Shown here: positions 7,755-57,519 of the stretch, in pieces
Layout: the number at the start of each line of letters is the position of its first letter
Position numbering within the stretch: the stretch's first letter is position 1
NCBI GenBank assembly: GCA_905221615.1
Contig: CAJNDT010003124.1
Location: forward strand, 618,942 to 682,941
Direction: 5' to 3'
Length of the DNA stretch: 64,000 bases
Source of the DNA: Symbiodinium sp. CCMP2592
Taxonomy: Eukaryota > Sar > Dinophyceae > Suessiales > Symbiodiniaceae
Notes under the pieces: generated by a model
What the model was told of the DNA's origin: nothing
The model's input: the letters and a program-made list of their open reading frames with translations, nothing else
Databases searched by the model: none
Made by a program: the position numbers and the translations under genes

Positions 7755-9432
7755 GATTTATGACATGGCAAGCAATGACAATGAAAACGAATTGCATGCC
7801 ACTAGGCGGTGACAGGTGAAATCAAATTATGCTGAAGCCCATATATCTGTGTATATATATATATATATATGCAGAAAATGTGTTCTCTATTTTATTGTAT
7901 GTATACATAAACCAAATATACATGTCAAACACCTAAATCACCACAGACAAGTAGTCATAATCAGAATGCATTACAAGGGCAAGAGAATCAAGAGAAGGTA
8001 TCATGATGTGACCTGAGCATGTTTTCATGCTGAGGCGGGCAATTAGTTTCTGAGCCGTGTTTGTTCGGTTTGCATTTGTGGAAGATGCGCAGCAACTTCC
8101 TGAAGGAGTGGATTCAGTGTAGTTGGTTTAGTTTACGGGTTAGGTTGTGCTTGTTCTTGCGTCATGCTCTCATTTTCCCAACCGTTTCGCACGGTCGGCA
8201 GCGGCGGTAGAGGTGGAGGCGAGGGGGTGCCCAAGTGAAGTGACAGTGGGGATTGGTTTTGTGACAGCGTTGATGATGTCGTCGTTCTTGTGTTCATTGT
8301 TGTTGATGGTTGCCCCTGTCCAAGTCGACGCACCGCTGATGGAAGAAAACAAGCCCTAACAGAGTCCTGAAGCCCAGAGGAGTTTTCGACATCGGCCCGT
8401 TTTCTCCGGGGGCGCTGCCACCAGCGAAACGCAAGGGCCCGTGTTAGCAGCTCACAGTTCTCGCCAGCGCTACTATGTCCATCGTCAGCATTATCGCTAC
8501 GATTATCCTTGCCGCCGAAAGCAGCAGTACTGTACCACAGTTATTAAACAAGTCTACGACAAACGATCTTAGTCTAGCCGCCAGGCTGATGATGGAGGTG
8601 ACTGCTTTGTGATTTTGTAGTGTTGGTACGGTTACACCCGTGGTCCGCGGGATGTCAGCATGGACCAAAGTCATAATGGATCAGAGCCAGGAGATGCCAC
8701 TCGCTTTCTTTCAACTGTTCAGTTCCTACGCTCCGCGGATATGTACATACATACATACATGCATGCATGCATACATACTTACATACATACATACACACAC
8801 GCTTTTTTGGTACATGGAGCCTTAAGGTGTTCACCCGTACTTTTTTAACTTTGGCATTCACCCTCTCGATACCGGGACACCCCGGAGCCTGTACTGAATT
8901 TGCCAACGAACGAAGCGCCAGCTGGAAATGTGCCTGCTCGGTTTAAAACCATCCAGCCATGAACTCGAGTGTCTCAACTATCCCCGAAGCTTGAACTGCG
9001 ATCAAACAGTATAATGTTATATTCTGCTGTTTATACCATGTATGGCTGTATCATCTGTATACCTACCTATTTATCTACCTATCTATCTTTCTATCCGAAA
9101 CATGCCCCTTCGGTCCTACGATATTGTGGACTCGTGATGTCTATACACATATCTGTATATCTAGAAATATAAGTATATATATATATATATATATATACAT
9201 ACCCGAATACATATGCTTCATGCTGGGAGAAGCAAGCGACCTAGGTGCCCGATTCGATGACGACAGGCCTTAGGGTGTTTGGGGTTTCGGGGAGCTCGTG
9301 CGGAAGCCATTTCTGCGAGTTGCACCATGACTCTTCGTGATGATACTTTTGCCTAGTGCCAGGTGACCCATGTTGCCCGCATCCGCAGTATCTATGGCTC
9401 CAGGGGTAGGCTGCAGCTGCTGGTCATGGCAG
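7667..9432. other. Spacer between kinase and nucleotidyltransferase; microsatellites
   Basis: Contains an AT run (7846-7870), CATA/TGCA tetranucleotide repeats (8745-8796), another AT run (9172-9198) and scattered TTTAGGG units. A piece around 8040-8112 can be read as exon (MRSNFLKEWIQ in one frame, VEDAQQLPEGVDSV plus stop in another) and might be the kinase 3' end, but neither frame is convincing. No other gene seen. Confidence 0.4.
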
Positions 9433-12400
9433 GTGACACACCTGAGCCTCCTGAGGGAAGGGGACCACACCGTGCTGCCTTGCCCACTATCCCTTATCCC
9501 GTAACTGGGTTCTTGTTCAGGAACTTAGTCTAAGGTATCATAATAAGGAAGCCAAATTATTTGCCATAGATTCCTACTATGGTAATTTGTTATTTCAAAG
9601 CATACTATTTACTATAGGCTCCTATTATGGTAACTTAATTCGAATCCCTTAACAAGAACCCAGGTAAGGGTGCAGCACGTCATCCGAAGGGTACTACAGG
9701 CGGCCTCTTCTGTGGAAGGGGCCGAGGTACGGGCCTTCGGCTCCTCTGTGAACGGCTTCGGTGACAGCTCCTCTGATGCTGGGCTCTTGTTGTGGCATAT
9801 AATTTAAGTTACCATAATAGGGATCTAAAGTAAGTAGTACGGTTTCCTTATTATGGTACTTGAAATTACATCCCTTAACAAGAACCCAGGATGTGGATGT
9901 AGTGCTCTCTGCGAACAAGGCTTGTTTTGCAGAGGGCTTGGGCCTGGGGAGGGTGAGCAAGAAGGACCTGGAGCCACGTGTCCTCGGGAAGCTGCGTCAG
10001 GAGCTACGAAAACGGGGATTTACCATTAACCTCTTTATCCCACAAGCCAAAGTGCCCATCATCAAGTTGAGCTTGGAGCACGCCGGAGACTGCATTGACT
10101 GTGACCTTTCTGTCAACAACTTGCTGCCAGTCTTCAACACCAAGCGCCCCAGCGTCCAACATGGCAGTGCTTTGAAGCCTTTTGAGTTGGACGAAGCCAT
10201 ACTAAACCATACTTTGGGTACTGCCCCCACTCAGTATCAGTTGGATAATACTCATAATATAGATATATTAGGTCCTTAGTAGTAGGCCTGTTATAGACTG
10301 TATGGGGGGCAGTACCCAAACCATACTAAACTCTTTACAAGTATTCCCAGAGAGGAAGTGCCAGCCTCAGCTCTGACCCAGCTTGTTTCGCTGCTATGTC
10401 TAATGCCCGGCCTAAAACCCCGATTCAAAGGGGAAAAGGAGGGACCCTTAATGGGGACCCTACCCGATAATGGGTATATAATGGCTATATTAAGGGTATA
10501 TACCTAGGGGTCCTTATTAGGGGTCCCTCCTTTTACCCCTGGACCGATACTCCCCTGGCCATAAACCTCCCGACCCAGAGCTCCGAAACCCTGAAGTCCC
10601 TAACCTTAAAACGTACTTGTAATATAGGGGCCTTAGTAATGACCTACACTATTTTGGTGGTTCCTTTTATAGTAGTATAATGGGCCCCCAAACCCTATTC
10701 TAGCTATTAAGGCCCCCATGTTAGCCCGTTTAAAGACTTCCAGTCAAGTCTTGAGCCTCTAAAGTCATAGGGACCCTCAGGGGGAGTAGGAGGGAGGGGG
10801 AGGGGGCCTTGAAGCCCATAATAAGGACATGCATAAGGAAGTATAGTCCCCTACCCCCCTCCCCCTACCCCGCCAAGGGTCTGTGTCTGAATTATCGGTA
10901 GTGTCCCTTCATAGTCTCGTTAAGATAAAAGCGTAATATGACATGTCCCACGACCCTACTCCACCTTTCAAGGTCCTGCTAAAATTGATTGAAACCATAT
11001 AAGAACGTTGAAGGAACCCTTTAAAGGAACCCCCATTCTAAGTATTGAGGCCCTTACGCCCTAACACCCTAAACGCTGAAACCCTGAAGCTTAACGCCCT
11101 AAGCCCTACCCTACGGTTGATGATATAAACCCTGCATTACCTTGATGACCTTAAACTATGGAAATCACGGTATATTCCTTACTATGGTTGATGCAGGGTT
11201 TATGTCATCGACCGTAGTTAGTATTCGGCGCACCCTAGTTATGTGGGAGTTTCCGAAAATAGGGGACCGCAATATAGTACCCTAAATAGTAGGATCCTTA
11301 TTATAAGGACCCCAAAATACGGTACCCGAATTTTCGGAAGCTTTAAACCCTAACCCCTGAACCCCTTATAGAACCCTTAATAGGAACCCTTAAAGGATCC
11401 CTTTAAAGGTACCCCCCGTTTCAGGCTCTTGAAATCCTATGCCGACTTCGACCTGCGGCTCGTGGAGATGGTGCAAACCTGCAAGGCTGCCGGCTCAACT
11501 TACCTTGGGTTAGTAGGGAATGGTTCCTCAAAGTAGGGAATAGGGCTCCTTTAAAGGGATCTTTTGGGGTTTAGGGTTCCTTTAAAGGGATCCTTACCTT
11601 TGGTTAGTAGGGAATGGTAGGGTTCCCTTATAAAGGGGTCTATAAGGGTTACTATAAGGGATCTCTGTAAGGGTACTAAAATATGGGGGCCTTAATCATC
11701 CTATAACTTACCTTTGGTTAGTAGGGAACAGGGCTCCTTTAAAGGGATCTTTTGGGGTTTAGGGTTCCTTTAAAGGGATCTTTGCCTTTGGTTTGTAGGG
11801 AATGGTAGGGTTCCTTTATAAAGGGGTCTATAAGGGCTACTATAAGGGATCTCTATAAGGGTACTATGATATAGGGGCCTTATTAATAATCCTATATCTT
11901 ACCTTTGGCTAGTAGCGAATGGAAGAATTGTTAATAGTAGTTATATTTGTACCCCATTCCTCCATTCCTTACTAGCAAAAGGTAAATCAACGAAGCAATG
12001 AGGCTGTTCTGCAATACTTGGGATTCCAGGAAATTAGGGGTACCGTATTTAGCCGTATGTTTGGGTCCTTATACGAAGAAGGACCCTACTATTTAGGATA
12101 CTACATTAGGGTCCCCTGGTTTCGGAAACTCCCACTTAGCAGCAGAGTAGGTAAATCTTAACGTTTTGGGGTCTATACAATCCTAGAAGGTGCACTTTTT
12201 TGGTCTCGGGTACCCAGCCTCTAAGCATGTGGGAGTTTTTGAATACGGGGCCCTTGTACAATCGAGCTTGCCAACGGTGGAAACCCCATCTCCTAAAACC
12301 CGATCCGTAAACCTCATCAATCCCTTGGCGCTAGCTTCAAGGTCCTACCCTTCCCTTTTGGAGGGTACCTAATTTCATGCTTCGGATCTGTTATTTAGCA

Positions 12401-22382: not shown

Positions 22383-22403
22383 GGTCAATGGCATCGAAGC
22401 TGC

Positions 22404-25400
22404 ATGAGGCTCTACGACCCGAAGAGATTGTACCCGCTGCACCTGGCAAAGGTTTTCCACCATTGCTTTAAGCCTAGTACTGTGCTTAAAAGCATGAACA
22501 TGCCTGGCGATTCGACAGTCATGATCGTGGAGGACGATGCCGTCGCAGGAGTTGGCAACGCTGGCGATGACGGATACGTCGCGCCTGTTGATGCTGCTGC
22601 GCAAAGGCAAGCCGCATTGGGTGTGGTGAACAATGGAGTGAACCGGAGAGCTGAGTTGGATTACAACGTTGCGGTCGAAACGGAGCACTACGTGCGGGAG
22701 ATCACCGATGTTCTGATGGAGATGCAGGTCCGGGACGGCCACACGGACAGAGTGATAGCGGTAAGTATGGAAATACGCAGAGAGATGGGGTTGTTTCTCC
22801 AATACGACCCCTCTCCGGCGGATGGCCTGCGAAACGCCCTGGTGACTCCCATCGTGCAGAGCCTGGACGACCGACAGATAGACCATGCCCAGATCCTCGC
22901 CAAACCACACAGAAGTTGGGTGGATGGTCTCTATGCGAGACTGTTCCGGGCGGTCGAACGAATCCGCCTGACCGTCTCGGAAGGGGAGTACGCCCTGGAC
23001 CTTGGTGAGTTGGCGGGCGGGACCTGCCTCATGGATGGTGGAAGAGGCTCGGGGCGCCGGCCGTGGAGAACTTCGACGCCCATGATAGGACCAAGCGGCC
23101 CTCGATCTACGCGCACTACGCACACCTATGTTGAAATGGGGCCCGGGGGAAGGGCACGAGCCAGCTCTCACCCCTTCACCGCAGGGGAACCTACCACTAC
23201 TGAGGAAGCAGTGGGGATCGTCTGCAGGGTCCTCAACCTCCACGAGGTCTCCGATACACCGGGGGTCGTTCCGGGCTTTCTACCAGCAGGCTTCCAAAGG
23301 CGGTTGGTGGATGTGATGCTGCCCATGTCCGACCGGGGGAGGCGGCTTATGCATGACTCGTTGGGTGCCTGCCTGGGCCGCCTGGGGGATGAGCTCGAGG
23401 AAATCATGGTCTCCCTTCCTCCGGCCGTGGCGCCCTCCCAGGCTTCTGGATCTACTCCAACACCAGCTGCGTCCTCTACAAGACGACCCAGCACGGCGCC
23501 TACAGCACGACCCGGGACACCGACACCAACGAGCCGACCGATATCTGCCCCATCTTCCTCGAGGCGGCCTCCTACAAGACCGACTGCTAGGTCGAGAACA
23601 CCGGCTCGACACACCTCCTCCGCAGCAAGCCACGGGACAGAGGGGGAGAGGGTGGATGAGCCACCAGAGGCGGTGGCGGTCGACCTTGAGTCGAAGTATG
23701 TCGAGGTGCCAGTGGAAATGGATGACTCTGAGGATGAGCTACTGATGCAACTCACCGTTTCCGTGAGTGAGGGGACCGAAGCTGCTACAGCAGAGGAAGA
23801 GTCGGACGAAGTACACCTCGTACAGACCAACACTGACCGACGACCAGAACCAAAAACCGCACCAGGGGGGCGGAGACCGCAACCAAGACACGCCAACTCA
23901 CCGGAAGAGGACATGCAGGAGGACCGGGAAAGGGAGCATAGCCGCTCTCGCTCGCCTCCCGTGAGTGATGCTTCGAACATCCTGAACAGTAGATGGTGGG
24001 CAGGGGCTGAGCTGAGACTGGACCTTCTTTTCAATTCAGGAGGCGGTGGACCCAGAATGCTCGGCTACCTTGAGGGCTTAATACAAAACCGAGGGGTTCG
24101 GAGTTACATGTCGTTCTGCGAGCCCTTCCTGATGCACCTCCAGGCGCTTATCCGCAACCCCGAGGAGATGGAGCTGCTCACCGCGGACGTGGAGTGGGCT
24201 CTCATGGTAGAAAACTACATGTGGGAGCAGTGGTCGGAACCACTGATGTCTCTGCCCGAGTGCACGATCCGCGAGTCGGTTGGCATCTTCGCTGCCGTGG
24301 ATGGTATTAGGCCGGGGGACCACACCTACACGATCCTCACGAGAGTGGACCCAAGTACCCTGGCGGCATCGCCAGATCCCGCCGAATCGTATTCGTCATG
24401 CCCGTCCTCCTCCTCGCCGTCGTCGGCCTCCAGGGGAGAGCAAGAGGGAACCAGTCTCATGCAATCCTCGCTCCGATGGCCCCAGGTAGGCGGACTCATG
24501 CAGGTGGTCCAAAGCCTGGATATCAAGCTGTGTGGCTTGCCGGTTCAAGCCAGGGTGAGGCGGGCTATCCAGCTCTTGGACTGGCTACGACGTCATTACA
24601 GTTCCCGAGGAGATCGTTCCCACCTACCGGAAGCGGCGGAGAGCTTGGAAGCAATGCTGACGTCACATGCAGTGGCAGATGAGGGGGCTTGTTCTCTTGG
24701 TGAGTCGGACAATGAGGAGGGATTCTGGCTCCAGACTTGGTGGGACCAACTCAGGTCTCTTTTACCGCCCGCAGGTGCACTGGAGCCTGCCCCGACTCTC
24801 CTGCACGACAGTGAGTCCACGGGCCTTGTGGAAGACAACCAACAGGACTTGGAGCCAGAAAGTGACGCGAGCCGGGCAAGTACGCAGGAGTGGCTTGCGC
24901 AGGAAGAAGAAAGGGCCCTGAGGGAGGATGAGCGACTCTTTGACGCCTACATGGCTGAGCAGGCGGCGGAGCGGGCGGAAATGCTAGACCGTGAGCGGTT
25001 GAAGGGTGCAAAGCTTCAAGACTGGGAGGACTGGGCGGTCAACGACGAGTTGAACAACGGTAACAGGCCGGCTCGGAAAAGGGCTCGCCTGGAGGTGGAA
25101 ACCTTCTTGTCAGGGGACGCAGACATGGCTTCGAGCAGCACCACGATCAGCCTACCAGCATGCGGATCGGTGAGACTGACGCTCCATCTACCACAAACAC
25201 AGGAGGATGTGGATAGCACGGCCAGCACGGTGCCCGCCGGGGGAATTGAGCACACGGAGCCTGATGTCGCACGTGCTGGTGGAGTAGGCGAGGTCACATG
25301 GACGTCGGAGCACGCCAAGGAGGCAGATCGTGACGAACCAGGCGGTGATGCTCGACCTGCGTGGCCGGCTGGCATGCTTCGTGATGGTGATGGATCTGAT

Positions 25401-25427
25401 CTACCTCTGCCTGATTCGGGGCCCTGA
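22404..25427 (+). CDS. Large protein of unknown function (1007 codons), RS-like and Ser/Pro/Thr-rich
   Basis: Uninterrupted ORF, in sharp contrast with the tiny exons around it. In order: a mixed N-terminal region (residues 1-330), a Ser/Thr/Pro/Arg-rich low-complexity stretch (about 340-415), acidic segments, an RS-like patch (EREHSRSRSPP, about 510-520), a Trp-containing segment (about 530-640), a Ser run, a helical-looking segment with VRRAIQLLDWLRRHYSS (about 710-730), and an acidic Ala/Glu-rich helix (EEERALREDERLFDAYMAEQ, about 835-855). Stretches such as 23958-24042 and about 24699-24774 begin GTGAGT and end CAG, so retained introns are possible. Lack of introns and length suggest a retrogene or a mobile-element ORF. 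I recognise no catalytic domain. A 389-codon antisense ORF (22074-23243) overlaps but is probably a shadow of the G/C-rich codons. Confidence 0.65.
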   Translation: MRLYDPKRLYPLHLAKVFHHCFKPSTVLKSMNMPGDSTVMIVEDDAVAGVGNAGDDGYVAPVDAAAQRQAALGVVNNGVNRRAELDYNVAVETEHYVREITDVLMEMQVRDGHTDRVIAVSMEIRREMGLFLQYDPSPADGLRNALVTPIVQSLDDRQIDHAQILAKPHRSWVDGLYARLFRAVERIRLTVSEGEYALDLGELAGGTCLMDGGRGSGRRPWRTSTPMIGPSGPRSTRTTHTYVEMGPGGRARASSHPFTAGEPTTTEEAVGIVCRVLNLHEVSDTPGVVPGFLPAGFQRRLVDVMLPMSDRGRRLMHDSLGACLGRLGDELEEIMVSLPPAVAPSQASGSTPTPAASSTRRPSTAPTARPGTPTPTSRPISAPSSSRRPPTRPTARSRTPARHTSSAASHGTEGERVDEPPEAVAVDLESKYVEVPVEMDDSEDELLMQLTVSVSEGTEAATAEEESDEVHLVQTNTDRRPEPKTAPGGRRPQPRHANSPEEDMQEDREREHSRSRSPPVSDASNILNSRWWAGAELRLDLLFNSGGGGPRMLGYLEGLIQNRGVRSYMSFCEPFLMHLQALIRNPEEMELLTADVEWALMVENYMWEQWSEPLMSLPECTIRESVGIFAAVDGIRPGDHTYTILTRVDPSTLAASPDPAESYSSCPSSSSPSSASRGEQEGTSLMQSSLRWPQVGGLMQVVQSLDIKLCGLPVQARVRRAIQLLDWLRRHYSSRGDRSHLPEAAESLEAMLTSHAVADEGACSLGESDNEEGFWLQTWWDQLRSLLPPAGALEPAPTLLHDSESTGLVEDNQQDLEPESDASRASTQEWLAQEEERALREDERLFDAYMAEQAAERAEMLDRERLKGAKLQDWEDWAVNDELNNGNRPARKRARLEVETFLSGDADMASSSTTISLPACGSVRLTLHLPQTQEDVDSTASTVPAGGIEHTEPDVARAGGVGEVTWTSEHAKEADRDEPGGDARPAWPAGMLRDGDGSDLPLPDSGP

Positions 25428-33408: not shown

Positions 33409-33607
33409 CAAACCCTAAACCCGACACGCGAAACCCTAAACCCTAAACCCTTAACCCGAAACCCGAAACCCTAAACCCGAAACCCGAAACCTTAAACCCT
33501 AAACCCGAAACCCTAAACCCGAAACCCTAAACCCGAAACCCTAAACCCGAAACCCTAAACCCTAAACCCGAAACCCTAAACCCTAAACCCGAAACCCTCA
33601 ACCAAAA
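33409..33607. repeat. CCCTAAA / CCCGAAA telomere-like array
   Basis: About 200 bp of alternating CCCTAAA and CCCGAAA heptamers, C-rich strand on +. It faces the opposite-orientation array at 33719-34043. Confidence 0.95.
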
Positions 33608-33685
33608 GCGTCTAAACTCTAAACCTCCAGGGCTCTGAAAAGAACGGCGATAGAAGCCGCCGCATGCACCCGAGGATCTGAACCG

Positions 33686-34214
33686 ATTGTCAACATAATG
33701 GTCCCTTTTGGGGTCCTTAGGGGTTTAGGGTTTAGGGTTTAGGGTTTAGGGGTTAGGGTTTAGGGTTTAGGGGTTTAGGGTTTAGGGTTTAGGGGTTAGG
33801 GGTTAGGGTTTAGGCTTTAGGGGTTTAGGGTTTAGGGTTTAGGGTTTAGGGGTTAGGGTTTAGGGTTTAGGGGTTTAGGGTTTAGGGTTTAGGGTTTAGG
33901 GGTTAGGGTTTAGGGTTTAGGGTTTAGGGGTTAGGGTTTAGGGTTTAGGGTTTAGGGGTTTAGGGTTTAGGGTTTAGGGGTTAGGGTTTAGGGTTTAGGG
34001 GTTAGGGTTTAGGGTTTAGGGGTTAGGGGTTAGGGTTTAGGGCAATAACCCAAAGGGTCCTAAGTATCTACCCTAAGGCCCCAAAGTAGTTCCTTTTTGA
34101 GGTTCGTATATAGAATCCTAAAAGGTAATCACAAAAAGGAACTACTTTGGGGCCTATGGGTAATACGGCACCTAATATTTAAGGTACACAAAAAGGGACC
34201 ATATTATTGACAAC
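33686..34214. mobile_element. Composite inverted-repeat element enclosing a TTTAGGG array and a second element
   Basis: Outer arms GATTGTCAACATAATGGTCC (33686) and GGACCATATTATTGACAAC (ending 34214) define one element. Inside are a 325-bp TTTAGGG array (33719-34043) and a complete GGCCCCAAAGTAGTTCC-family inverted repeat (34066-34170). The outer family has a simple copy at 42174-42292. Confidence 0.65.
33719..34043. repeat. TTTAGGG telomere-like array
   Basis: Nearly uninterrupted TTTAGGG and TTAGGGG units, G-rich strand on +. The longest array in the window. Confidence 0.97.
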
Positions 34215-46551: not shown

Positions 46552-46658
46552 TGTGAGGACAACCACTAGTGTTTCACCCCCGTTGAGCCTGTGGTCCGGG
46601 GTCCGTTGGGTAGTGTAGTGATAGTCGCGGCGCAAAGGCCCCTTCTATCCTCGAAGCC

Positions 46659-49600
46659 ATGAGCGTGGCAGGTTTGCGTTACCAGCCCAATCTCTGGTCA
46701 CAGAACCTGAGCCCTGCAGAAACCAAAAGCGGGTCGTACATATACGACGGTACGGCTGCTGGCTTCCATGATTGGTGCTTCCGGACACAGATCCGTGTGC
46801 TGCAGCATAAGGAGAAGCAGCGGCGCGAAGCTCTTAAGGACCTGCGTTTTGCCGAGTCGGCAAGGGCCAAGAGCGAGTCACCAAGGAAGTGGCGTGGCAG
46901 GGCAAGTCAGGGGACCAGTGCGTCGCCCACAGATGGTGATGGAAGCAGCGGTATACCCGCCAGTCCGTCCAGCGCAAAACGGACTAAGCCCGCGTCCGAG
47001 GCAGAAGATGAGGATGCGGAGTCGCTACCGTCGCACCCCAGCCAAGTGGCGGGCGACGATGAGCAAGAGCCGGACACAGATCCGGCGGTGTACACCTTGC
47101 AAGACGTCAAGGACGAGTCGCTCGACATGAGCGAATGCGTTAGCAAGATCCTAGAGGGTCTCCGAGGAGATGCCTTTTGCATCGCTCGCGACGTCGGCCT
47201 GGAACGTCTGCTTCGCCATGACGGCGTCGACTACCTGATAGAAGAAATCAGGAGGCAAGCCTTCCCTCTTCAATCCGAAGAGGCGTCCGAACTTTTCCGT
47301 CAGGGACAGCTCCTGACGGGCCCACTTGCAAAGCAACCCGGCGAGCCTATGTTGTCTTACATAGCCCGCCGAAAGCGGTGGTGGTCGACCTTGCGTGAGC
47401 TGGATCCTGATATCCGCCTTTCTGAAGCAATGAGGGCTAATCTCCTTGTTGAGCTTTCAGGGTTGGAAAGGTCCGAGCAGCTAATGGTCAAGACCGCCGC
47501 CCGCGTACACAGCGTGGATGAGTACGCACGCGTCCTTGTTCAGCATCACTCAGTGGTGCACATGAAGGAACGTCTTCTTACCCAGAAGGACCCTAGTGGC
47601 CCAGGTAAGACCTGGAGACGTTTCGACGCTAAGCCCCAATACCCTAAGTTCGGCTATATGGGGTATGATGGTAGTGCCGCAGAGTATGGTTACCAGGAAC
47701 AACAGGAATCCGCGGAAGGCTACGGTGACGGCTACGGCGAAGAAGCATACCAGGCCACAGCGTCTGGGGGAGATGATGCGGATGAATGGATTGATGATGA
47801 GGATCTAGCATTGCAACTCAACGCCTATACGGCAGTGGCATATGAAGCTGAGATTGACGATTTGGATGATTCCTATGCCGAGTCAGTTCAGCTTGCGTAC
47901 GCGGCACAGACCGCCTTTGCCCAGGCGAAAGGAAAAGGAAAGGGGAAGAACAAGGGCAAGTCCCCCGGAAAATCCGGAGGGAAGGTCGTGCGTAGCAATT
48001 TGACCATTGCTGACCGTAAGGCCAAGTTAGCAGAGCTTAAGGCAAAGAGTAGGTGCCTGAAGTGCGGTGTGATCGGCCATTGGGCCGGAGATGCTGCCTG
48101 CAAGTTTAGCGGTAAGGGCAATGGCCCCAAGGGCACCACAACCCCAGCACAGTCTGGGGGAACTGCCAACGCAGCCGCAAAGTCGGCGACGCCGAAGCCT
48201 CAGGCGTATTTCGCCGCAGTGGAGGAGGATGACACAGAGTGTGTCCATCTGTCGAATGCGAGCGCTGGTAGGCTCGAGGGTTACCCAGCCAACCTTGAGC
48301 TGACTCCCTCAAAGACCAATACCGGCAAAGGCCGCGGCAATGAAACCCTCTTCTCACCACAGCTTCGGCGCACAGCCGCCGCTGGGATCATGCGTGACAG
48401 CCCGCCTGAGGGTTCCGATCGCGTTTTCTCCTTTGGTCAGCATAAGGGTCTGACTTATGAGCGTGTCTTGTATACGTTTCCTGGGTATGTTCTTTGGGGA
48501 CGCACGCAGAAGTGCCCATCCATAAATTTGGCCGATTTCTTGGATTGGGTCACGGAGTACTTTGATGTGCGTGATGATAACCCCATTAGCATCACGAGAA
48601 GGGATGTCCCTCTCAGCCAGGAACCCCCGCCTGAACCCTTTCAGCCCGAGGTTCGCCTCGCCGCGTCAGCTGCTCCGTCCAGCGAAGGCCCCCGGAAATG
48701 CCGGGGAGGTTGCAAGGAGTTCAACAAGTCGGGGAGTAACGCATACATAGACATGCGGACCTGTAAGAAATGCGGCACCGTCACCAAGACGAAGAAAGAG
48801 AAGCCTGTCATAGACCAGGCCACATGCCCCCACACCTCCACCGAGAGGTCGGGTAGCAGTAGGAAGACCTCCCGCATTAAGTGCAAGCTTTGTGGGATGC
48901 TTCTAGATGAGCAGCCGCAGACCGAGCGAAAGGCTAGGGATGACGCAGCCACAGTGCTGCGGGAGTCCAACACCCTGGACTTCGATCTTCTGCGCAGCAT
49001 AGTCGGCAGCACGGGGGATAGCCTCCCCGTAGAGGTAGTAGTTCCGGCTATTGCCCAGTTTCAAGAGACCATAGAGGGTCACTTCGTAACCGAGCCCGTG
49101 ATATCCCGCGGTGACCTTCTCGCATACCTGCAAGAGGCCTTAGACGATCACTCTGCGCCATCGACCAACAACAGTTGGGAAGTGGCGTCGGCGAGATCGC
49201 GCTCCTCGAGGGCCTCCGCGACGAGGCACGCCTTCGTGGCTTTCACTGAGGGGGTCACAGATATCCATCCGGCTTTGGTTGATTTGCCCGTAGTAAATAT
49301 CTACGAGGATAAGCACGTATACGCCGTGTTGGATGAGGGCTGTAACTCGACTGTTCACGGTAGCGATTGGATAGCAAACGCGGCGGGGAAACTTGCGAAC
49401 TTCGGTTACAGCACGAGGTTTAAACCTGAGGGCAATCGTACCTTCAAGGGTCTTAGCGGCGCTACCGAGACCTTGGGTAGCAGGACCATACCTTTCTCTA
49501 TAATGGGATTGGAGCAGGACTTGAGAGTTCCGGGCGTCCTTGATTCACATGAGATTAAGGGTACAGCCCCTCTCCTTTTGTCCCTTTACGCGCAGGCCCA

Positions 49601-52600
49601 GCTTGGTATAACCAAAGATCTTCGGTTTGGTGAGTGTGGTGTTCGACTTCCTTCTGAGGATAGCATCATTAGGATCAAGCTGTGTCGGACACATGACTCA
49701 GGGCTGTTATGCATAAACATAACAGAAGGCTTGACCCAGGTGAAACAACCCCGTCTCATAAAGAGCTTCCAAATTCCCTCGCCGCCAGTTCCTATATTTA
49801 GGTCTGCCGCCGCCTTAGCTCACTCAGAGTCCGTGAGCGGATCACCCCGAGATGCAACAGCGGCAGATGACGCAGTGGCAACAAGTCGCAGTCACAGTAC
49901 TGTAGATGCAGGCCATGGTCATAGCACTGTAGGCGTAGGCCACGGTCACAGCTTTACAACGACAGCTGAGAATCGCAACAACACCAAGCGACGCATAAGC
50001 GTAGCGTTTCCGAACCATTGCATGGTAGGCACGTCCGTAGGAGACACGGAGCCCGCCGCGATGGCTGCAGCAGAGGGGCAGCTGCCTAAGAAGGCGCCCC
50101 CGACGGCAAAGGCTGCACCGAAGGTTCTTGCAGCGCCGGACCCTGGCCACAGTGCCATGGCGAAGTCACCAGCGGTCGGCCACAGTGCCGCACCGGCAGG
50201 AGGCACCTTTTCCGCGCCTGCGCCTAAGGCGCCGCCTGGAAGTGGATTGCCCAAGAAGGCGCCTCCCACGGAGAAGGCCAGGCCTGGGGATAGCCCAGGA
50301 ATCCCGCCAGCAGCTCGTGCCACAGTGCACCCGAAGGAGATTGCAAGAGGGCACCGCGAGCTGGCCGAGTTTGATGCGGTTGTGAAGAAGGACCCGCATG
50401 GCAGGCCCCTGGTTATAATGGCAGGTGGAGGACCCCACGGTCCGGAGCTCGACACGCCTCTCCCAGCATCCGTGTATAATCCGGATTTGGCCTTGCAGCC
50501 GTATTATGCGGGGGACACAGCGAACCCGGACATCATTATTGATGTTTTTACCTGGGGCTATGAGCACCATGCCTGGCTGCAACGCGTCAGAGGGAAGTGG
50601 ACAGCAGCCGAGCTCTTCGCACAGCACGAAGAGATGGAAACGCATGCGACCACGACGTATGCATCTGCCACCAGCTATATGCTGGTGATGTTGGACATGG
50701 TGTGGCTAAAGGACGATCGCAAAGACGATCTGACGCCTGCCGAAGCCCAGCAGCGCAACGATGAACAGCGCGACCGCACAAAGCATGTTGGGTCAAACCC
50801 CGATATAATTCGGGAGCACGCAGACCATCCCAATTTGATTGCCCACGTCAGGCACATCGTGGCGAACGTCCTCGACGCCAAGGATGCTGGGATTCGGTCC
50901 ATAGCCGTGCATGTTGTTTGCAAGGCCAACAGACATAGATCTGTTGCGGCGGGTATCCTTACCCATGCAACGCTTTTGGAGCTTGTGCCAGATTGCTCCG
51001 TCAGCCTCACTCACATGAGTGCAGCGAACAGTTGGCCGTTCATGGGCAGCAAAGCGTGCAAAGGGCAGTGCCCCAAGTGTTTGCACCGCGCCCCTGGCAT
51101 AGCCCAGGAGGTTGAGGAACTTACGAGGTTCTTCTTCGACGCCGTCCGCACAGACGGACCGGAGGACAATGAGTGCATCCTTGTCGTGGAGCCGCAGTGT
51201 GCACGCCCTGATGATCAGTCTACATATGCTGAGCGGTTTCATGAACGCCTGCTTGCAGAGGGCCGCATACAGGCACCGGTGACGGGGGTAGGTCCCCTTG
51301 ATAGGCCTCCCCTGGCAGGCGAAACCGCGTGCCAGGCTGCAACCCGCATGGGGCTGGTCGGCAAGACACATACATCGTATGTGGCCAAGTTCGATCCCAA
51401 CTCGCTCACTGCGGCGATGAATCGCGCACAGGGCACAGCCCCTGGAGGACGCTTGCCTTCGGTTACCTTTAGCTCGGGTCCTAACCCTGCTAGTTCTAGC
51501 GTAGGTGCGTCAGCCAAGGGCGGAGCGGCCCCCATAGGGGGACCGAAGGACCCACCGGCACCGCCGCCGGCAAAGTCCGGTGGGGCACAGGACCGCGCAG
51601 CGACGCCGACAGGGTCGTCGGCTCGGATTCGCAGGCTCGAGGCCGAGGTCCACGACCTCACCGATGCGAATCGCTGCCAAGAAAGCACTGTAAGTGACTT
51701 GAGAGAGGCCCTCAGCAATGTGAAGCGGCAGCGCGATAATGCGTATGATCGGCTGCAGGACATGCGCGAGAGGGCAGAAGACGCGGAACGCCGGGCCGAT
51801 AGGGCCGAGGTGGAGCTTAAGAGGCTCACACGCCGCTCCAGATCGCGTCGCAGGCGGAGGGATAGTTCCTCCTCGAGCAGGGGCCATCACCGTGACCGCA
51901 CCCGAGAAAGGCGGCGAATGGACTCCAGGCCTCGGGATAGGTCCGAGGCTCCGACACGCCAACGCACCTCCCGTTGGGGTCGCGTCCGCGACCCAGGCGA
52001 CGACCGTGCGGATCGGGACACAGCTCCCGAGCGCGAGCGCATTCGTGCAGGCCAGGACACAGCTCCCGCGCGTGAGCGCACGAATCCTCGCCCCTCTGCA
52101 CGGCCGGAGGTGGAGTATGAGCCCGACAAAGGCAAGGGCAAAGGCAAGGCTGCACCCCACAGTGTGTACGACGAGGTCGAGTACGACGATGGCACAGGTG
52201 CAGGTGACTGGGATCCACCGGGACCCAGGAGCAGCCTTGGAGGCAGCAGGCGCCCGCCTGAACCGCCGGAGCCACCGCGCTTCCGAGGCAGTGCTGGTTA
52301 CCATAGGTTCCCAGAGCGCGAGAATCCGCACCGCCCCATGACAGCAAAAGAGTCATGGTGGTATTTCCACGGCGATAGGCCGTCGGACGAGTGGAATGAC
52401 GCGGAATGGGCAGAATTCCGTCGTCAGTTTCCGAAGCCCCCAGGGCAAGGCAAGCTCGTCGAAATCGACGAGAGGATCCCGGCCATCGACGTTGGTGCCA
52501 TTGGACTCAGCCCCGACACAGGTTTCGGGTGGAACAGGCGCATCGTGTTCCAGGACTTTCCTGATGGTGTGCTGACCGCCCTATACGAGGTGATGTGCGA

Positions 52601-55600
52601 GAAGCAGGCGCCAGCGTGCTGGATCGGTCCATATGCACCGAGGCGCTTCTGGGCTGGTGACAAAAATCACCATGAGCTCAGCGAACGGCACAACATAAAG
52701 TGCACTGTGGTCACCCGCCACACAGGCCGTTCGTATAAGCCGACGGGCAAGCTACGGGACATAGATCCCATAGGATATTTGTTTTCCCATCTGGACCCCT
52801 CCGACGGCACCAGTTGGACGTATGAAGGCGCATGCTTTCCGCCGGGGTCAGACTCCGAGAAGTTGCCCACCGAAACCGGTGGAGCCGAGCAGGCCTGCCC
52901 GACGCAGGAGCCGACAGAAGACGGCGCATACGTCGCGCTTTGGGTCTTTCCCTTGGCGTTCGACGCGGCCACGGTGCCCCATCAGATCGAGGACACAGAT
53001 GCCTTGAGTGCCGTGTATATCCCGGGCACAGACCCGCGGGCGTCGCGCATTGCCACCTCTGCCGGCCCGGGCACAGTCCCGGAGGGTGACGTTTCACCCA
53101 TGGAGGAGGACGGAGCAGAGCGCGATGCAGCATACATGGCCGTCTGCAGTGGGGAGTGGGTAGGACAAGCCAGCCAGATTTCTTTTCCAAGCCCTGATCC
53201 TCCCGAAGACCTGCCCCACAGTAGCAGCGCAGCCTCTGGGCCCTCAGCCGCTAGCTTAAAGAAGCTTAGCAAGGCCCAGTCCAAGTACCTCACCTCAAGC
53301 CTTACCGAAATGGTAGCGGGAGACGAAGTCTTAAAGGCAATCGTGTACAACGCTGCCATGCGAGAAGCTGATCACCTGATTAGATTGCATGAACCCTCGG
53401 CACAGGTCCTCGCGAGCGTGATCAACGAGAGGCAGAACGGGCCACCGGGCCTCGTGGTTGCCAGGTTTGAGACTTCCACAGAGGAGTTGTGTTTGGAGCT
53501 TGAGTGTGTAGCCGATACCCTCAACATTCCGATCATATTGGTTACCCCGAACGGCTATCCAATGCTTGAGGACACTGTTACCTTGAGGGGAGACATGCAT
53601 ATCTCAGGCATAGGCCCAGAGATTGGAAAGGCTTTGGACCTCTTCCAAGCATGGTCAGAGTCTTACGGGTATATACCCCGTAGCTATGTTGATACGGATA
53701 GTACTGACTTTTGGAACCTTTGTCGTACCATTTCTGAGGAGTACTATATCAACGCATTTAGCCGAACTTGCTTTGTCGGCGACGCCCAGGACACAGATCC
53801 TGAGGACATCAGCGAAGCAGAGCTGGTGCCCGACGCTGAGATGCCTCAGCGAGGTGTCCCTGATGGGATGGACGATGCCGGTGGCGCACTGACGCCCGAG
53901 GAGAGAGAACGCCTCATTTTGGAACAATTCCCGTTTCCCGGAACTCCGAACACAGAGGCAGAGCGCCGAGCGGCGTGGAGATCGTTACCGCAACGAGTCC
54001 GGGTAGCTATAAGGCGCCTGCACCGATCGTTTGGCCATCTGCCAAACGCAGTCCTAATACAGGTTCTGAAGCAGGCCCGGGCGAGCAAAGATTTCATCGC
54101 CGCTGCCGGACTTTACAAGTGTAAGGTCTGCCTGGACACAGCTCCAGTGCCCAGGCACCATCCTGTCGCAGGTGATAGCGTGTTTCCAAAGGAATTCAAC
54201 CATACTATAGGAATGGATGCGCTAGAGGTCAAGGACTTCTTCGGAAATCGCTATACTGCTGTCAATATAGTTGACATGGGAACCAGTTTCCAGCAAGTTG
54301 TGCTCGTGAAATCTGGGGGTGGTAACCCAAGTGCCCGCCAGTGTGTGAAATGCCTGATTGACAGGTGGATCAGCTGGGCTGGACATCCCAAAGTCATAAC
54401 CACTGACAGAGGGACGCACTTCAGGGGAGAATTTTCAGAGTATTTGGCACAGCATGGTATAATCCATAAGAACGCCCCTCTCGAGAGTCCGCAGACTATT
54501 GGAAAGGTCGAACGTCATGGTGGACTTGCTAAGGCCATCATTAGAAAAGTCGCGCAGGAGACTCAGCCCTCGAATATCGAGGAGATGGAGGCGGTCGTTA
54601 CCGAGAGTGTTACTACTAAGAACGAGCTTAGTAGGCACCAAGGGTTTAGCCCAGCACAACACGTGTTGGGAAAGCAGCCTCGAACACCGGGTTCCGTGCT
54701 AGATGAATCCGAAAGCCTTGGTACATTGTTCACCAAGTATGATGAGACGAGTGTATACTACATTCGGCACAGAGCACGGCAGGAAGCCAAAAAGGCCTTT
54801 GTGCATTTAGAGACTTCCCGCAAAGTGGCCAAAGCGTTACAGCGTAATGCAGCCCCTCTAGACACTGATTATAAGGTTGGTGATTTAGTTATCTACCGTC
54901 GGGACAACGTCCCTGGCAGCCCAGGTGTCGTGTGGTCCACGGTTAGCCGCGTCATAGGACGTGAGGCAGAGAATGCGTACTGGGTATTACACGAGAATAT
55001 CCCTGTACTTGTGAACGCTAGGAAGATGCGCCCAGCTGATGAAATCGAAGTTGCAGCGCACCGCGTTTTGGCAGGTGAACCAGTGCTTCCGGAAGCCATC
55101 GTACATGGGCCGGAACAAAGGTTCCAGGATGAGCGCGTAGCGGATCCGGTCACAGCACCAGCGACGCCACGTCCAGTGGCTGCAGCTGCCCCGCTTACAC
55201 CGGCAGTCGCGCACGATGTGCCTATGCCAGCACCATCGACGCCAGCGATGATGCCCGGCACACCGATGCCAGCGCCATCTACCCCTGCAAGGTTTCGCGC
55301 CAAAGATAAGACGGGCGAAACCGCCCGGTCGCGATCGCCAGTAGGAGGCCGTGATGACGCACTAGTTGCAGAAGAGCTTGATCAAGTAGAGATCATGGCA
55401 AAAGGCCTGATAGATGCTCAGGGTTTTTCTCCAGATGAGTGTCTGGCCCTCCTTCGCGCTTATGACCGCGACCGACGCGAGGCGTACACGCGCCCGCTCC
55501 TGGATGATGGAGATCCCGGGAGCATAGCCCTCGCGGTGGGAGTATATCGACACGGTGGTCTTGTTGGTGTCTCTGGACCAACGCGCGAGAGACCGTCGTT

Positions 55601-55850
55601 CGCCATGTACCTCAACCACTATCTCTTGCATCACAGTATGCAAGCCGGTCACCATCTTCCACAGTGGAGTAGCGTTCAGCTTACCAACAGAGGCGCAGAG
55701 GCCCATAGAGACCTAGCGAACACTCCTGGCTCGTATAACTACACTATAGGTGTGGGCGAGTATCGTGGAGGCGGCCTATGGGTGGAAGAAGCCACGGGTA
55801 CAACTCCCGTGCGTATTCGAAAACACGACAATGTATGGCACCGTCCATGA
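46659..55850 (+). CDS. Copia Gag-protease-integrase polyprotein with extra domains (3063 codons)
   Basis: Starts ATG AGC GTG GCA GG. In order: Gag-like helical region (about 1-440); zinc knuckle CLKCGVIGHWAGDAAC (about 466-481, CX2CX4HX6C); FSFGQHKGLTYERVL (about 590, resembling the exonuclease X C-terminal module); CxxC pairs in a ribbon-like segment (about 690-745); retropepsin-like AVLDEGCNSTVHG (about 890, DEG for the usual DTG/DSG); GHSA/GHGHS Ala/Pro-rich linker; a RapZ-C-like domain with CKANRHRSVAAG (about 1370-1430); a coiled coil then RS/RD-rich tract (about 1650-1790); integrase with HHCC (about 2454-2490) and catalytic D (MDALEV, about 2519), D (TTDRGTHF, about 2582), E (GKVERHGG, about 2617); and a 2OG-Fe oxygenase-like HRDLANT...GGGLWVE segment (about 3014-3045). 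The frame ends at 55850 while homology continues in the +1 frame. Confidence 0.93.
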   Translation: MSVAGLRYQPNLWSQNLSPAETKSGSYIYDGTAAGFHDWCFRTQIRVLQHKEKQRREALKDLRFAESARAKSESPRKWRGRASQGTSASPTDGDGSSGIPASPSSAKRTKPASEAEDEDAESLPSHPSQVAGDDEQEPDTDPAVYTLQDVKDESLDMSECVSKILEGLRGDAFCIARDVGLERLLRHDGVDYLIEEIRRQAFPLQSEEASELFRQGQLLTGPLAKQPGEPMLSYIARRKRWWSTLRELDPDIRLSEAMRANLLVELSGLERSEQLMVKTAARVHSVDEYARVLVQHHSVVHMKERLLTQKDPSGPGKTWRRFDAKPQYPKFGYMGYDGSAAEYGYQEQQESAEGYGDGYGEEAYQATASGGDDADEWIDDEDLALQLNAYTAVAYEAEIDDLDDSYAESVQLAYAAQTAFAQAKGKGKGKNKGKSPGKSGGKVVRSNLTIADRKAKLAELKAKSRCLKCGVIGHWAGDAACKFSGKGNGPKGTTTPAQSGGTANAAAKSATPKPQAYFAAVEEDDTECVHLSNASAGRLEGYPANLELTPSKTNTGKGRGNETLFSPQLRRTAAAGIMRDSPPEGSDRVFSFGQHKGLTYERVLYTFPGYVLWGRTQKCPSINLADFLDWVTEYFDVRDDNPISITRRDVPLSQEPPPEPFQPEVRLAASAAPSSEGPRKCRGGCKEFNKSGSNAYIDMRTCKKCGTVTKTKKEKPVIDQATCPHTSTERSGSSRKTSRIKCKLCGMLLDEQPQTERKARDDAATVLRESNTLDFDLLRSIVGSTGDSLPVEVVVPAIAQFQETIEGHFVTEPVISRGDLLAYLQEALDDHSAPSTNNSWEVASARSRSSRASATRHAFVAFTEGVTDIHPALVDLPVVNIYEDKHVYAVLDEGCNSTVHGSDWIANAAGKLANFGYSTRFKPEGNRTFKGLSGATETLGSRTIPFSIMGLEQDLRVPGVLDSHEIKGTAPLLLSLYAQAQLGITKDLRFGECGVRLPSEDSIIRIKLCRTHDSGLLCINITEGLTQVKQPRLIKSFQIPSPPVPIFRSAAALAHSESVSGSPRDATAADDAVATSRSHSTVDAGHGHSTVGVGHGHSFTTTAENRNNTKRRISVAFPNHCMVGTSVGDTEPAAMAAAEGQLPKKAPPTAKAAPKVLAAPDPGHSAMAKSPAVGHSAAPAGGTFSAPAPKAPPGSGLPKKAPPTEKARPGDSPGIPPAARATVHPKEIARGHRELAEFDAVVKKDPHGRPLVIMAGGGPHGPELDTPLPASVYNPDLALQPYYAGDTANPDIIIDVFTWGYEHHAWLQRVRGKWTAAELFAQHEEMETHATTTYASATSYMLVMLDMVWLKDDRKDDLTPAEAQQRNDEQRDRTKHVGSNPDIIREHADHPNLIAHVRHIVANVLDAKDAGIRSIAVHVVCKANRHRSVAAGILTHATLLELVPDCSVSLTHMSAANSWPFMGSKACKGQCPKCLHRAPGIAQEVEELTRFFFDAVRTDGPEDNECILVVEPQCARPDDQSTYAERFHERLLAEGRIQAPVTGVGPLDRPPLAGETACQAATRMGLVGKTHTSYVAKFDPNSLTAAMNRAQGTAPGGRLPSVTFSSGPNPASSSVGASAKGGAAPIGGPKDPPAPPPAKSGGAQDRAATPTGSSARIRRLEAEVHDLTDANRCQESTVSDLREALSNVKRQRDNAYDRLQDMRERAEDAERRADRAEVELKRLTRRSRSRRRRRDSSSSSRGHHRDRTRERRRMDSRPRDRSEAPTRQRTSRWGRVRDPGDDRADRDTAPERERIRAGQDTAPARERTNPRPSARPEVEYEPDKGKGKGKAAPHSVYDEVEYDDGTGAGDWDPPGPRSSLGGSRRPPEPPEPPRFRGSAGYHRFPERENPHRPMTAKESWWYFHGDRPSDEWNDAEWAEFRRQFPKPPGQGKLVEIDERIPAIDVGAIGLSPDTGFGWNRRIVFQDFPDGVLTALYEVMCEKQAPACWIGPYAPRRFWAGDKNHHELSERHNIKCTVVTRHTGRSYKPTGKLRDIDPIGYLFSHLDPSDGTSWTYEGACFPPGSDSEKLPTETGGAEQACPTQEPTEDGAYVALWVFPLAFDAATVPHQIEDTDALSAVYIPGTDPRASRIATSAGPGTVPEGDVSPMEEDGAERDAAYMAVCSGEWVGQASQISFPSPDPPEDLPHSSSAASGPSAASLKKLSKAQSKYLTSSLTEMVAGDEVLKAIVYNAAMREADHLIRLHEPSAQVLASVINERQNGPPGLVVARFETSTEELCLELECVADTLNIPIILVTPNGYPMLEDTVTLRGDMHISGIGPEIGKALDLFQAWSESYGYIPRSYVDTDSTDFWNLCRTISEEYYINAFSRTCFVGDAQDTDPEDISEAELVPDAEMPQRGVPDGMDDAGGALTPEERERLILEQFPFPGTPNTEAERRAAWRSLPQRVRVAIRRLHRSFGHLPNAVLIQVLKQARASKDFIAAAGLYKCKVCLDTAPVPRHHPVAGDSVFPKEFNHTIGMDALEVKDFFGNRYTAVNIVDMGTSFQQVVLVKSGGGNPSARQCVKCLIDRWISWAGHPKVITTDRGTHFRGEFSEYLAQHGIIHKNAPLESPQTIGKVERHGGLAKAIIRKVAQETQPSNIEEMEAVVTESVTTKNELSRHQGFSPAQHVLGKQPRTPGSVLDESESLGTLFTKYDETSVYYIRHRARQEAKKAFVHLETSRKVAKALQRNAAPLDTDYKVGDLVIYRRDNVPGSPGVVWSTVSRVIGREAENAYWVLHENIPVLVNARKMRPADEIEVAAHRVLAGEPVLPEAIVHGPEQRFQDERVADPVTAPATPRPVAAAAPLTPAVAHDVPMPAPSTPAMMPGTPMPAPSTPARFRAKDKTGETARSRSPVGGRDDALVAEELDQVEIMAKGLIDAQGFSPDECLALLRAYDRDRREAYTRPLLDDGDPGSIALAVGVYRHGGLVGVSGPTRERPSFAMYLNHYLLHHSMQAGHHLPQWSSVQLTNRGAEAHRDLANTPGSYNYTIGVGEYRGGGLWVEEATGTTPVRIRKHDNVWHRP

Positions 55851-57519
55851 TACTAAGAACAAGGTTCTTAAGTTTCGCCCGAAGGACGTGCACATGGTCG
55901 CACCGTTTGTAGGAGAAAGATACAGTCTCTCCGCATACACGGTGAGTGACCTCGGTAAGTTGTCTAAAGATGACATACAGCTTTTGTCGGATCTAGGCTA
56001 CCCCATATATAGGGATGCGCCCAATACCTTTGGCAGAAAAGGCGATGGGATATACACCATGGGTCACTCTGATCTCCCCATCGAGACGTTCCTAGAGCGC
56101 ATCCACGTGTACGGGATTAAGGAAATCGTAGATTGCAGAAGCCACCCGTACAGTGTTCGGCATCCACAAAACAATTGTGATGAGCTTTCCGCCACATGCT
56201 TTGCAAAAGGGGTTGTGTACAGTCACGCCCCCGAGTTAGGCAACAGGAATCGGGGCGGGATTGAAGCCAACATGCAAACAGACCAAGGGCTCTGTACGAT
56301 CGCTAGAATAGTTAGCGAGGCTCACGATGACTTTCACCGAATACTTCTGTTGTGTTCGGAGGCCAGTTGGCGGCGATGCCATCGGCGAAATATCGCCCAG
56401 CACATATGGCTCGAGCATTCGAAACTTACAGAGCACATACGTGCTAACGGACTGCCAGAAGCCCATCCGTGTCAATACATTCCTGAGGAAGACGACGGAC
56501 TGGCAGCAGCATCGCACACAGCTGCGATTGGCACGACAGTGCCGGCAGTTGAGCCCTCGGATAGTCGAGAGGCGGAATCCAAGGCCTTCGCTCTCACCCC
56601 TCATGGGGAAGACGCCTTCGGCTCTAATGTCGATGTTGGCTACATGGCCTCGCTCCTGGATTACCATAAGGCCCCTGTAGAAGTACAGCTGGGGCTGGAT
56701 GCTGCCATGAAGACTGAATGGCAGAAGTACACTGAATTCAACGCAGTGGTCCCTTGCACAGACAAGGAGTTTAAGGAGCTTACAAAGGCTGGCCACGTGT
56801 GTATCCCCACCAAATGGGTTCTTACCGATAAGAATGAACACCTAAAGGGGACAGCAGCATACACTCCCAAGTGGAAAGCACGCTTGGTCGCATGTGGAAA
56901 CTTCGAGCATATCTCGAATGAGGAGGATATCAGGGCAGACAGCCCCACAGCCGAGCCGGAAGGTATAGCCCTTCTGTGTTCATGGGCGGTTTCGTTGGCC
57001 CTGCGGCTCAAAGCAGCCGATATAACGAACGCATACTTCCAAGGGAAACCCCTTGAGCGCCTCCTCATTCTTCGGGTTCCCAAACACCCTAAGGGTGTGC
57101 CCGATGCAGAGATTCAGCGAGCCGGGTATATGATTGCCCGAGTACCCGTGTACGGCACCACCGACGCGGGTCGAAACCTTTACCTCCGTATAAAGGAGAG
57201 TTGCCGAGAATTTGGCTTAAATGCCTCGCAAATTCTGTCAGCCCTGTACTATATCACAGGAGAAGGTGGTCGTTTGTGCGCTTGCTTGTGCACCCACGTG
57301 GATGCTTTCCTGTGGGCTGCTACCGCCGAAGGCGAGCCGGCTATCCAGAATCTGCTGGATAAGTTTAAGATCGGTCGCATAGAGACTGAGAAGTTCCGTT
57401 TCTGCGGACGCGAGTATGTGCAAAGCGCAAACCGCGTAGTAGCACTGGCGTTAGGAGATGCGGATAGGCCGATCACGTACAGCGCTAAGAGTACCGAAAG
57501 CACTCCGCTTCGCGATTGA
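55800..57519 (+). CDS. Copia reverse-transcriptase ORF with DUF488 domain (RT changed at catalytic site, no RNase H)
   Basis: Frame +1 to the upstream ORF. It has no convincing start of its own: the open frame reaches back to a GTG at 55750 inside the first ORF, so it is read by frameshift or separated by an indel. Residue positions count from that GTG. First comes the tail of the oxygenase-like segment (GTVHDTKNKVLKFRP), then a DUF488 domain at 56046-56420 (IYTMGHSDLPIETFLERI, VDCRSHP, HAPELG, LLLCSEASWRRCHRRNIA; about 100-225). Then the copia RT core: WKARLVACGNFE, AADITNAYFQG (first catalytic Asp), ARVPVYGTTDAGRNLYL and THVDAFLWA. The usual xVDD is HVDA at 57295-57306, so the last catalytic Asp is Ala. 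The ORF stops at TGA 57517-57519, before any RNase H. Confidence 0.9.

Follow-up and report, generated by a model that had tools for sequence, protein, structure and literature searches.

The TUT7-like nucleotidyltransferase gene of Symbiodinium sp. CCMP2592 is very probably interrupted by two non-autonomous DNA transposons with terminal inverted repeats (TIRs), i.e. MITE-type Introners that inserted into its exons, such that the duplicated target, beginning with G[TCA], would provide the splice donor and the terminal CCCAG of the element the acceptor. Membership in a repeat family, the TIRs, the 4-bp duplications, filled and empty sites, the exact restoration of the protein and a bias in the donor together make transposon-made introns the best explanation of these segments. 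Both elements lie in the window, which denotes the whole stretch of 64,000 nucleotides analysed here, and are arranged with the exons of the gene as follows.

9426..9500, forward strand: exon 1 of the TUT7-like nucleotidyltransferase (MAGDTPEPPEG...TIPYP), from the open reading frame after excision and a gap-free match to Symbiodinium Tut7
9501..9504, forward strand: first copy of the GTAA target duplication, a direct repeat; its GT is the predicted donor of intron 1
9505..9663, forward strand: Introner element 1, 159 bp, with perfect 13-bp TIRs (13/13), ending in CCCAG, the predicted acceptor; from the TIRs and the duplication
9664..9774, forward strand: exon 2, starting with the second GTAA copy (9664-9667); from the open reading frame after excision and the Tut7 match
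9775..9778, forward strand: first copy of the GATG target duplication, a direct repeat; its GA is the predicted donor of intron 2
9779..9889, forward strand: Introner element 2, 111 bp, TIR 12/13, ending in CCCAG, the predicted acceptor; from the TIRs and the duplication
9890..10143, forward strand: exon 3, starting with the second GATG copy (9890-9893), completing SDVDV and ending ...LLPVFNTK; from the open reading frame, Pfam and the Tut7 match
10144..11424, forward strand: predicted intron 3, GC donor and CAG/G acceptor, placed via exon 4
11425..11485, forward strand: exon 4, extending at least to about the last position given, LLKSYADFDLRLVEMVQTCK, in frame

The two elements share the common TIR CTGGGTTCTTGTT/AACAAGAACCCAG, from which the left arm of element 2, CTGGGCTCTTGTT, departs by one mismatch. 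Apart from that mismatch, the preliminary description of two copies of one TIR family with exact GTAA and GATG duplications is confirmed. Five TIR matches with up to two mismatches occur inside the window, an unremarkable number that 9 of 100 shuffles reach.

Neither the segment 9501-9663 (163 bp) nor 9775-9889 (115 bp) is divisible by three, and the unspliced frames across both contain stops. Excision of both segments yields an open frame with GSSVNGFGDSSSDVDV. Pfam search of the excised frame returned PF22600 (E 2.2e-20, residues 34-147), which spans junction 2 and not junction 1, and the search against PDB matched TUT7, TUT4, MEAT1, Gld-2 and Cid1. The single homolog found among 5.8 billion proteins at E <=1e-5 comes from Symbiodinium sp. 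CCMP2456; it is a partial Tut7, 94% identical over 147 residues, and its gap-free alignment runs through both junctions. The open frame and these matches agree with the earlier assignment to a Cid1-like nucleotidyltransferase whose SDVDV motif is rebuilt on excision.

Protein search of the same genome with the window gene retrieved its own three exons and one weak match (54% over 39 residues), and no paralog with an empty site. The gene is single copy apart from that match, and therefore comes without an internal empty site. Having no second copy for internal comparison, the gene might be a disrupted pseudogene in which the insertions were simply retained; the gap-free 94% identity to Tut7 over 147 residues, the in-frame exon 4 and the occurrence of the same family in further conserved genes such as proteasome beta-2 make this very unlikely. 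In the article texts searched, we found no mention of the introns of this TUT7-like gene.

Exon 4 at 11425-11485 indicates that the gene continues past exon 3, and intron 3 is accordingly placed at 10144-11424, where it would split the last codon of exon 3. With GT in intron 1, GA in intron 2 and GC in intron 3, one TUT7-like gene appears to use three donors. Intron 3 carries an unrelated inverted repeat at 10213-10320, with 16-bp arms TTTGGGTACTGCCCCC and CCATAC on both sides, which would fit a MITE of a different family that duplicates 6 bp. It had been considered a third exonic insertion, a candidate that was dropped because exon 4 at 11425 places the repeat inside intron 3.

The family was searched in the 1.098-Gb assembly (1,098,105,373 bases, 5383 contigs). 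The exact TIR occurs 1626 + 1592 times, compared to 32 + 26 for the reversed pattern, and two perfect TIRs spaced for elements of 96-126 bp define 248 complete copies, compared to none in the reversed control; the family is therefore not due to chance. In total 109 copies were analysed, comprising 69 elements called among 87 sequences (the window plus 86 fetched loci, with no element pair in 18) and 40 further intact copies; they represent the places listed first in contig order rather than a random sample. Of the 69 elements called, 23 are flanked by an exact 4-bp duplication, compared to a mean of 0.7 and a maximum of 5 in 1000 shufflings of the pairs; repeat lengths of 2, 3 and 5 bp give 3, 2 and 1 matches. 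For the 53 sampled perfect-TIR copies, the count is 33 (shuffle mean 1.45, maximum 6), with 4 matches for a length of 3 bp, none for 5 bp and 2 for 6 bp. No exact duplication is present in 57 of the 109 copies.

Most elements measure about 96-180 bp, with a TIR of 13 bp and a TSD of 4 bp. They are short, TIR-bounded, TSD-flanked and too short to encode a transposase, as is typical of MITEs, and the 4-bp TSD is that of the Introners of the Symbiodinium microadriaticum type. The many similar copies, a share of which occupy exon positions as predicted introns, are those of an Introner family. At least 95% identity to the 111-bp consensus was found for 22 of the 53 perfect-TIR copies, eight of them fully identical, so the family has been active recently; 14 of these 22 young copies have a perfect duplication and 8 have none. 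Two copies have unusual flanks. L089 (201-312), a 99% copy, is bordered by 12-bp flanks that are perfect reverse complements and not a direct duplication, and the consensus-identical L111 (201-311) by a 6-bp direct repeat, GAATTT, instead of 4 bp.

Introners of S. microadriaticum have been described with a 4-bp TSD, TIRs, their own 3' splice site and a 5' splice site that is taken over from the TSD, with GC at 0 to 50% and GA at 0 to 40% of 5' splice sites across families (Gozashti et al. 2022; PMC9860276). Family 1 of that species resembles the window elements in all four respects, and its example at 86725-86839 measures 115 bp, equal to intron 2 here; the likeness refers to the described architecture (PMC9860276). 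Because the same architecture has been published for S. microadriaticum, both the mechanism and the kind were already known: the elements are Introners of a known kind, and the principle is in print. TE-created introns like those proposed for the window have also been reported at genomic scale for dinoflagellate Introners (Roy et al. 2023, as presented in the review PMC11453091), which are treated in PMC10522408 as well. The introner elements of Amoebophrya likewise combine inverted repeats of 8-20 nt and direct repeats of 3-5 nt at the intron ends with a hairpin; however, the non-canonical introns of Amoebophrya are described as having no clear splice motif, whereas the present family favours GT, GC or GA and ends in AG (Farhat et al. 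2021; PMC7789003). In the dinoflagellate data given in PMC10666404, GA donors make up 17-24% in five of seven species, compared to 0.1% for Amphidinium and none for Amoebophrya, and AG/G is found in 96-97% of introns in four of the seven, with 79.7% in Prorocentrum, 93.2% in Amphidinium and 56.5% in Amoebophrya.

Empty sites were compared for two copies, L011 at the DNA level and L051 at the protein level; L131 (C68) was left out of the alignments. In L011 (C36), a 121-bp element lies between two GTAT copies, and one GTAT together with the element (4+121 bp) is missing from four C1447 paralogs. The empty site reads ACAAGCAT in three of these paralogs and ACGAGTAT in one, within the uninterrupted stretches ...ACAAGCATAGC... 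and ...ACGAGTATAGC..., respectively. Protein search of the genome further revealed relatives of the L011 gene that read straight across residue 178; other relatives, on C2001, fragment near residues 182-200, which is close to and not at residue 178. In L051, which has a GACT duplication and thus a GA donor, 8 further places in the genome were retrieved, 7 of which extend across residue 115, and the three paralogs fetched, at 44, 34 and 33% identity, keep an open frame with no gap at the junction; the protein search with L051 gave no homolog. An insertion into an exon that is absent at the empty site, the mark of a new intron, was therefore observed for L011 against four paralogs and for L051 against three. 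The family offers a clean, countable case of intron birth, in which one genome holds identical 111-bp copies, exact duplications, and sites with and without the element.

Junctions of further copies were compared with protein families, using spliced ORFs chosen by eye in four batches of 10, 10, 10 and 3, in which 5, 0, 1 and 1 Pfam family matches were obtained at E <=0.001. Outside the window, homology spans the junction in L033, L054, L123 and L010, whose precise excision thus restores conserved proteins. In L033 (proteasome beta-2, GAAA, GA donor), five alignments were inspected; the two with PUP1-type chains pass the junction without a gap, and the other three have a gap of one residue close by, a few residues away at most. 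In L054 (MFS transporter, GAAA, GA donor), MFS_1 extends over residues 23-101 and hence over junction 45, with 33.1 bits, just below the cutoff of 33.4. The junction of L123 (ADP-ribosylglycohydrolase, GCTA, GC donor) falls inside the WTDDT motif. L010 (GTTG, GT donor) matched the Mlh1 C-terminus with E 3.6e-6, and in a second search with E 0.0012, ranked behind an unrelated pyridoxal kinase of slightly better score. Three copies were not counted as spanning: L003 (ankyrin, GATC/GATT), with its best stretch at 51-120, downstream of junction 40; L012 (mitochondrial carrier, GCTA), matched at 85-176, downstream of junction 21; and L004 (TMEM144, GAAG/AAAG), whose match at 25-87 barely crosses junction 27. 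In L105, some 120 bases past the element on its downstream side, a diverged copy of the family seems, by eye, to start after the DRLWCVVELATF exon, and neighbouring introns from one family may thus recur.

In several genes the element ends coincide with the predicted junctions to the base. This coincidence bears on the reading that the elements landed in pre-existing introns, where the repeat merely resides. Introns do accumulate transposons, as illustrated by the other inverted-repeat element in intron 3 of the same gene; but base-exact ends in several genes are at odds with such residence, and the intronless paralogs of L011 and L051, as filled and empty sites, disfavour it further, leaving it hardly any probability.

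For the donor, so that copies were not selected by eye, a coding-like base composition was scored for each of the 109 copies after precise excision, with the duplication unused. This score, a position-specific GC measure, is crude; its parameters were set by hand after earlier examples, and the threshold of 4 was fixed before its result. It replaced a codon-usage score trained on two long ORFs of the window, which ranked some homology-supported junctions low. Among the 24 exact-duplication copies with a score of at least 4, the duplication starts with GA, GC or GT in 16 (GA 7, GC 5, GT 4), compared to 8 of 56 readings for the remaining 28 copies taken on both strands (p 7e-6), and to 4/24 for the antisense reading of the same 24 copies. 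The comparison with the rest gave p values of 4.7e-5, 7e-6, 2.2e-6, 4.1e-4 and 4.8e-3 at thresholds of 2, 4, 6, 8 and 10, respectively. For L015 the right end was manually reset to 3161 instead of 3108, since a matching duplication is found there; a repeat of the test that left out this hand-adjusted copy together with the window copies gave 13/21 versus 8/56 (p 8e-5).

The eight coding-scoring copies that start otherwise on the chosen strand fall into several kinds. In L012 and L075 the opposite strand reads GCTA/GTTT, and in L021 (2912-3013, AGGA) a boundary shift of two bases gives a GA donor, with the duplication's own AG as acceptor and the same spliced product. The exceptions L102, L037, L044, L094 and L121 are unexplained and may be false coding calls. 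GG starts none of the 24 coding-side duplications and none of the 56 other readings, so that its absence is neutral. A genome-wide tally of the fourth base beyond each TIR was considered and dropped, as target preference and selection are inseparable in it without the coding strand.

Judged from these counts, the donor, whether GT, GC or GA, probably comes from the duplication, and the excess of 16/24 over 8/56 is what a 5' splice site derived from the TSD would be expected to leave. The lack of preferred splice borders that characterizes euglenid nonconventional and Amoebophrya non-canonical introns was not found, since the donor G[ACT] is favoured and the AG is provided by the element end. 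Intron creation by insertion of a DNA transposon, as first proposed for the window, is upheld by the filled and empty sites of L011, the paralogs of L051 and the donor statistics, and the proposal that the duplication gives the donor and the element the acceptor is supported at the sequence level by the same statistics.

The claim of a near-direct read-out of intron creation holds for the insertion and not for the recency of the two window copies. Element 2 agrees with the young 111-bp consensus at 96 of 112 alignment columns, and the length of element 1 departs from it by 48 bases; the window copies are therefore older by comparison, and are not fresh insertions. Nor was it borne out that a GA donor is usable from the moment of insertion, since the sole candidate, L118, which is the only copy that combines at least 95% identity to the consensus with a duplication starting in GA and an above-threshold coding score, comes without homology support.

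We propose that a transposase acting in trans would cut the target with a 4-bp stagger, so that four target bases become duplicated on either side of the element. The first copy, if it reads GT, GC or GA on the coding strand, would serve as the 5' splice site, and the CCCAG at the TIR end as the 3' splice site. After removal by the spliceosome, the second copy would be kept in the mRNA and restore the reading frame exactly, its leading G producing the AG/G junction. The algal Introners of Micromonas and Aureococcus are reportedly built in a comparable way (Huff et al. 2016), with one splice site from the duplication and the other from the element. These belong to other lineages than the dinoflagellate family studied here.

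The 16 donors resemble the consensus CAG/GTAAGT in 4.06 of 9 positions on average, a low value given that a fixed G+1 would by itself lead to 3.0; for the window's GA donor the figure is 2 of 9. T+6, which is supplied by the element, is found in 15 of the 16 and G+1 is present by selection of the set; AG occupies the two exon positions before the donor in only one of the 16. Element 2 with its duplications folds into a long hairpin (-47 kcal/mol, z -7.0). Both features might suggest a hairpin-guided or donor-indifferent excision of the kind described for the non-canonical introns of Amoebophrya or the nonconventional ones of euglenids, in which the exon ends are brought together by the hairpin whatever the sequence of the duplicated bases, for the donors are barely above the expected likeness, with G+1 and T+6 accounting for two positions. 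Such excision is nevertheless very improbable in our view, given the coding-side GA, GC or GT starts in 16/24 versus 8/56 elsewhere, the AG provided by the element's own end, and the use of GT, GC and GA in dinoflagellate introns reported in PMC10666404.

With the duplication as putative donor, the low resemblance to CAG/GTAAGT together with the hairpin would be compatible with the element itself positioning the donor. Tentatively, and with the balance of our judgement against it, the 5' splice site could be set by position and not by U1 pairing, the TIR stem holding any G[T/C/A] that the duplication places immediately outside the hairpin beside the CAG acceptor. If this were true, the AG/G junction of dinoflagellates and their mixture of GT, GC and GA would in part be a fossil of target-site duplication. 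The three donor dinucleotides are apparently set by the target, and the donor requirement at the birth of an intron thereby becomes testable on this family.

Elsewhere in the window, a 1014-aa open frame at 22383-25427 has no Pfam match at E <=0.001. Copia-like retrotransposon frames occupy 46614-57519; among them, a 3078-aa open frame, whose match to an integrase domain (rve) is weak and stays under the cutoff of Pfam, overlaps a 589-aa frame containing a DUF488 domain followed by a reverse transcriptase (RVT_2); parts of these frames have no Pfam match. To our knowledge, a DUF488 domain fused to a retrotransposon polyprotein is unusual. Long overlapping inverted repeats are densely clustered at 33410-34042.
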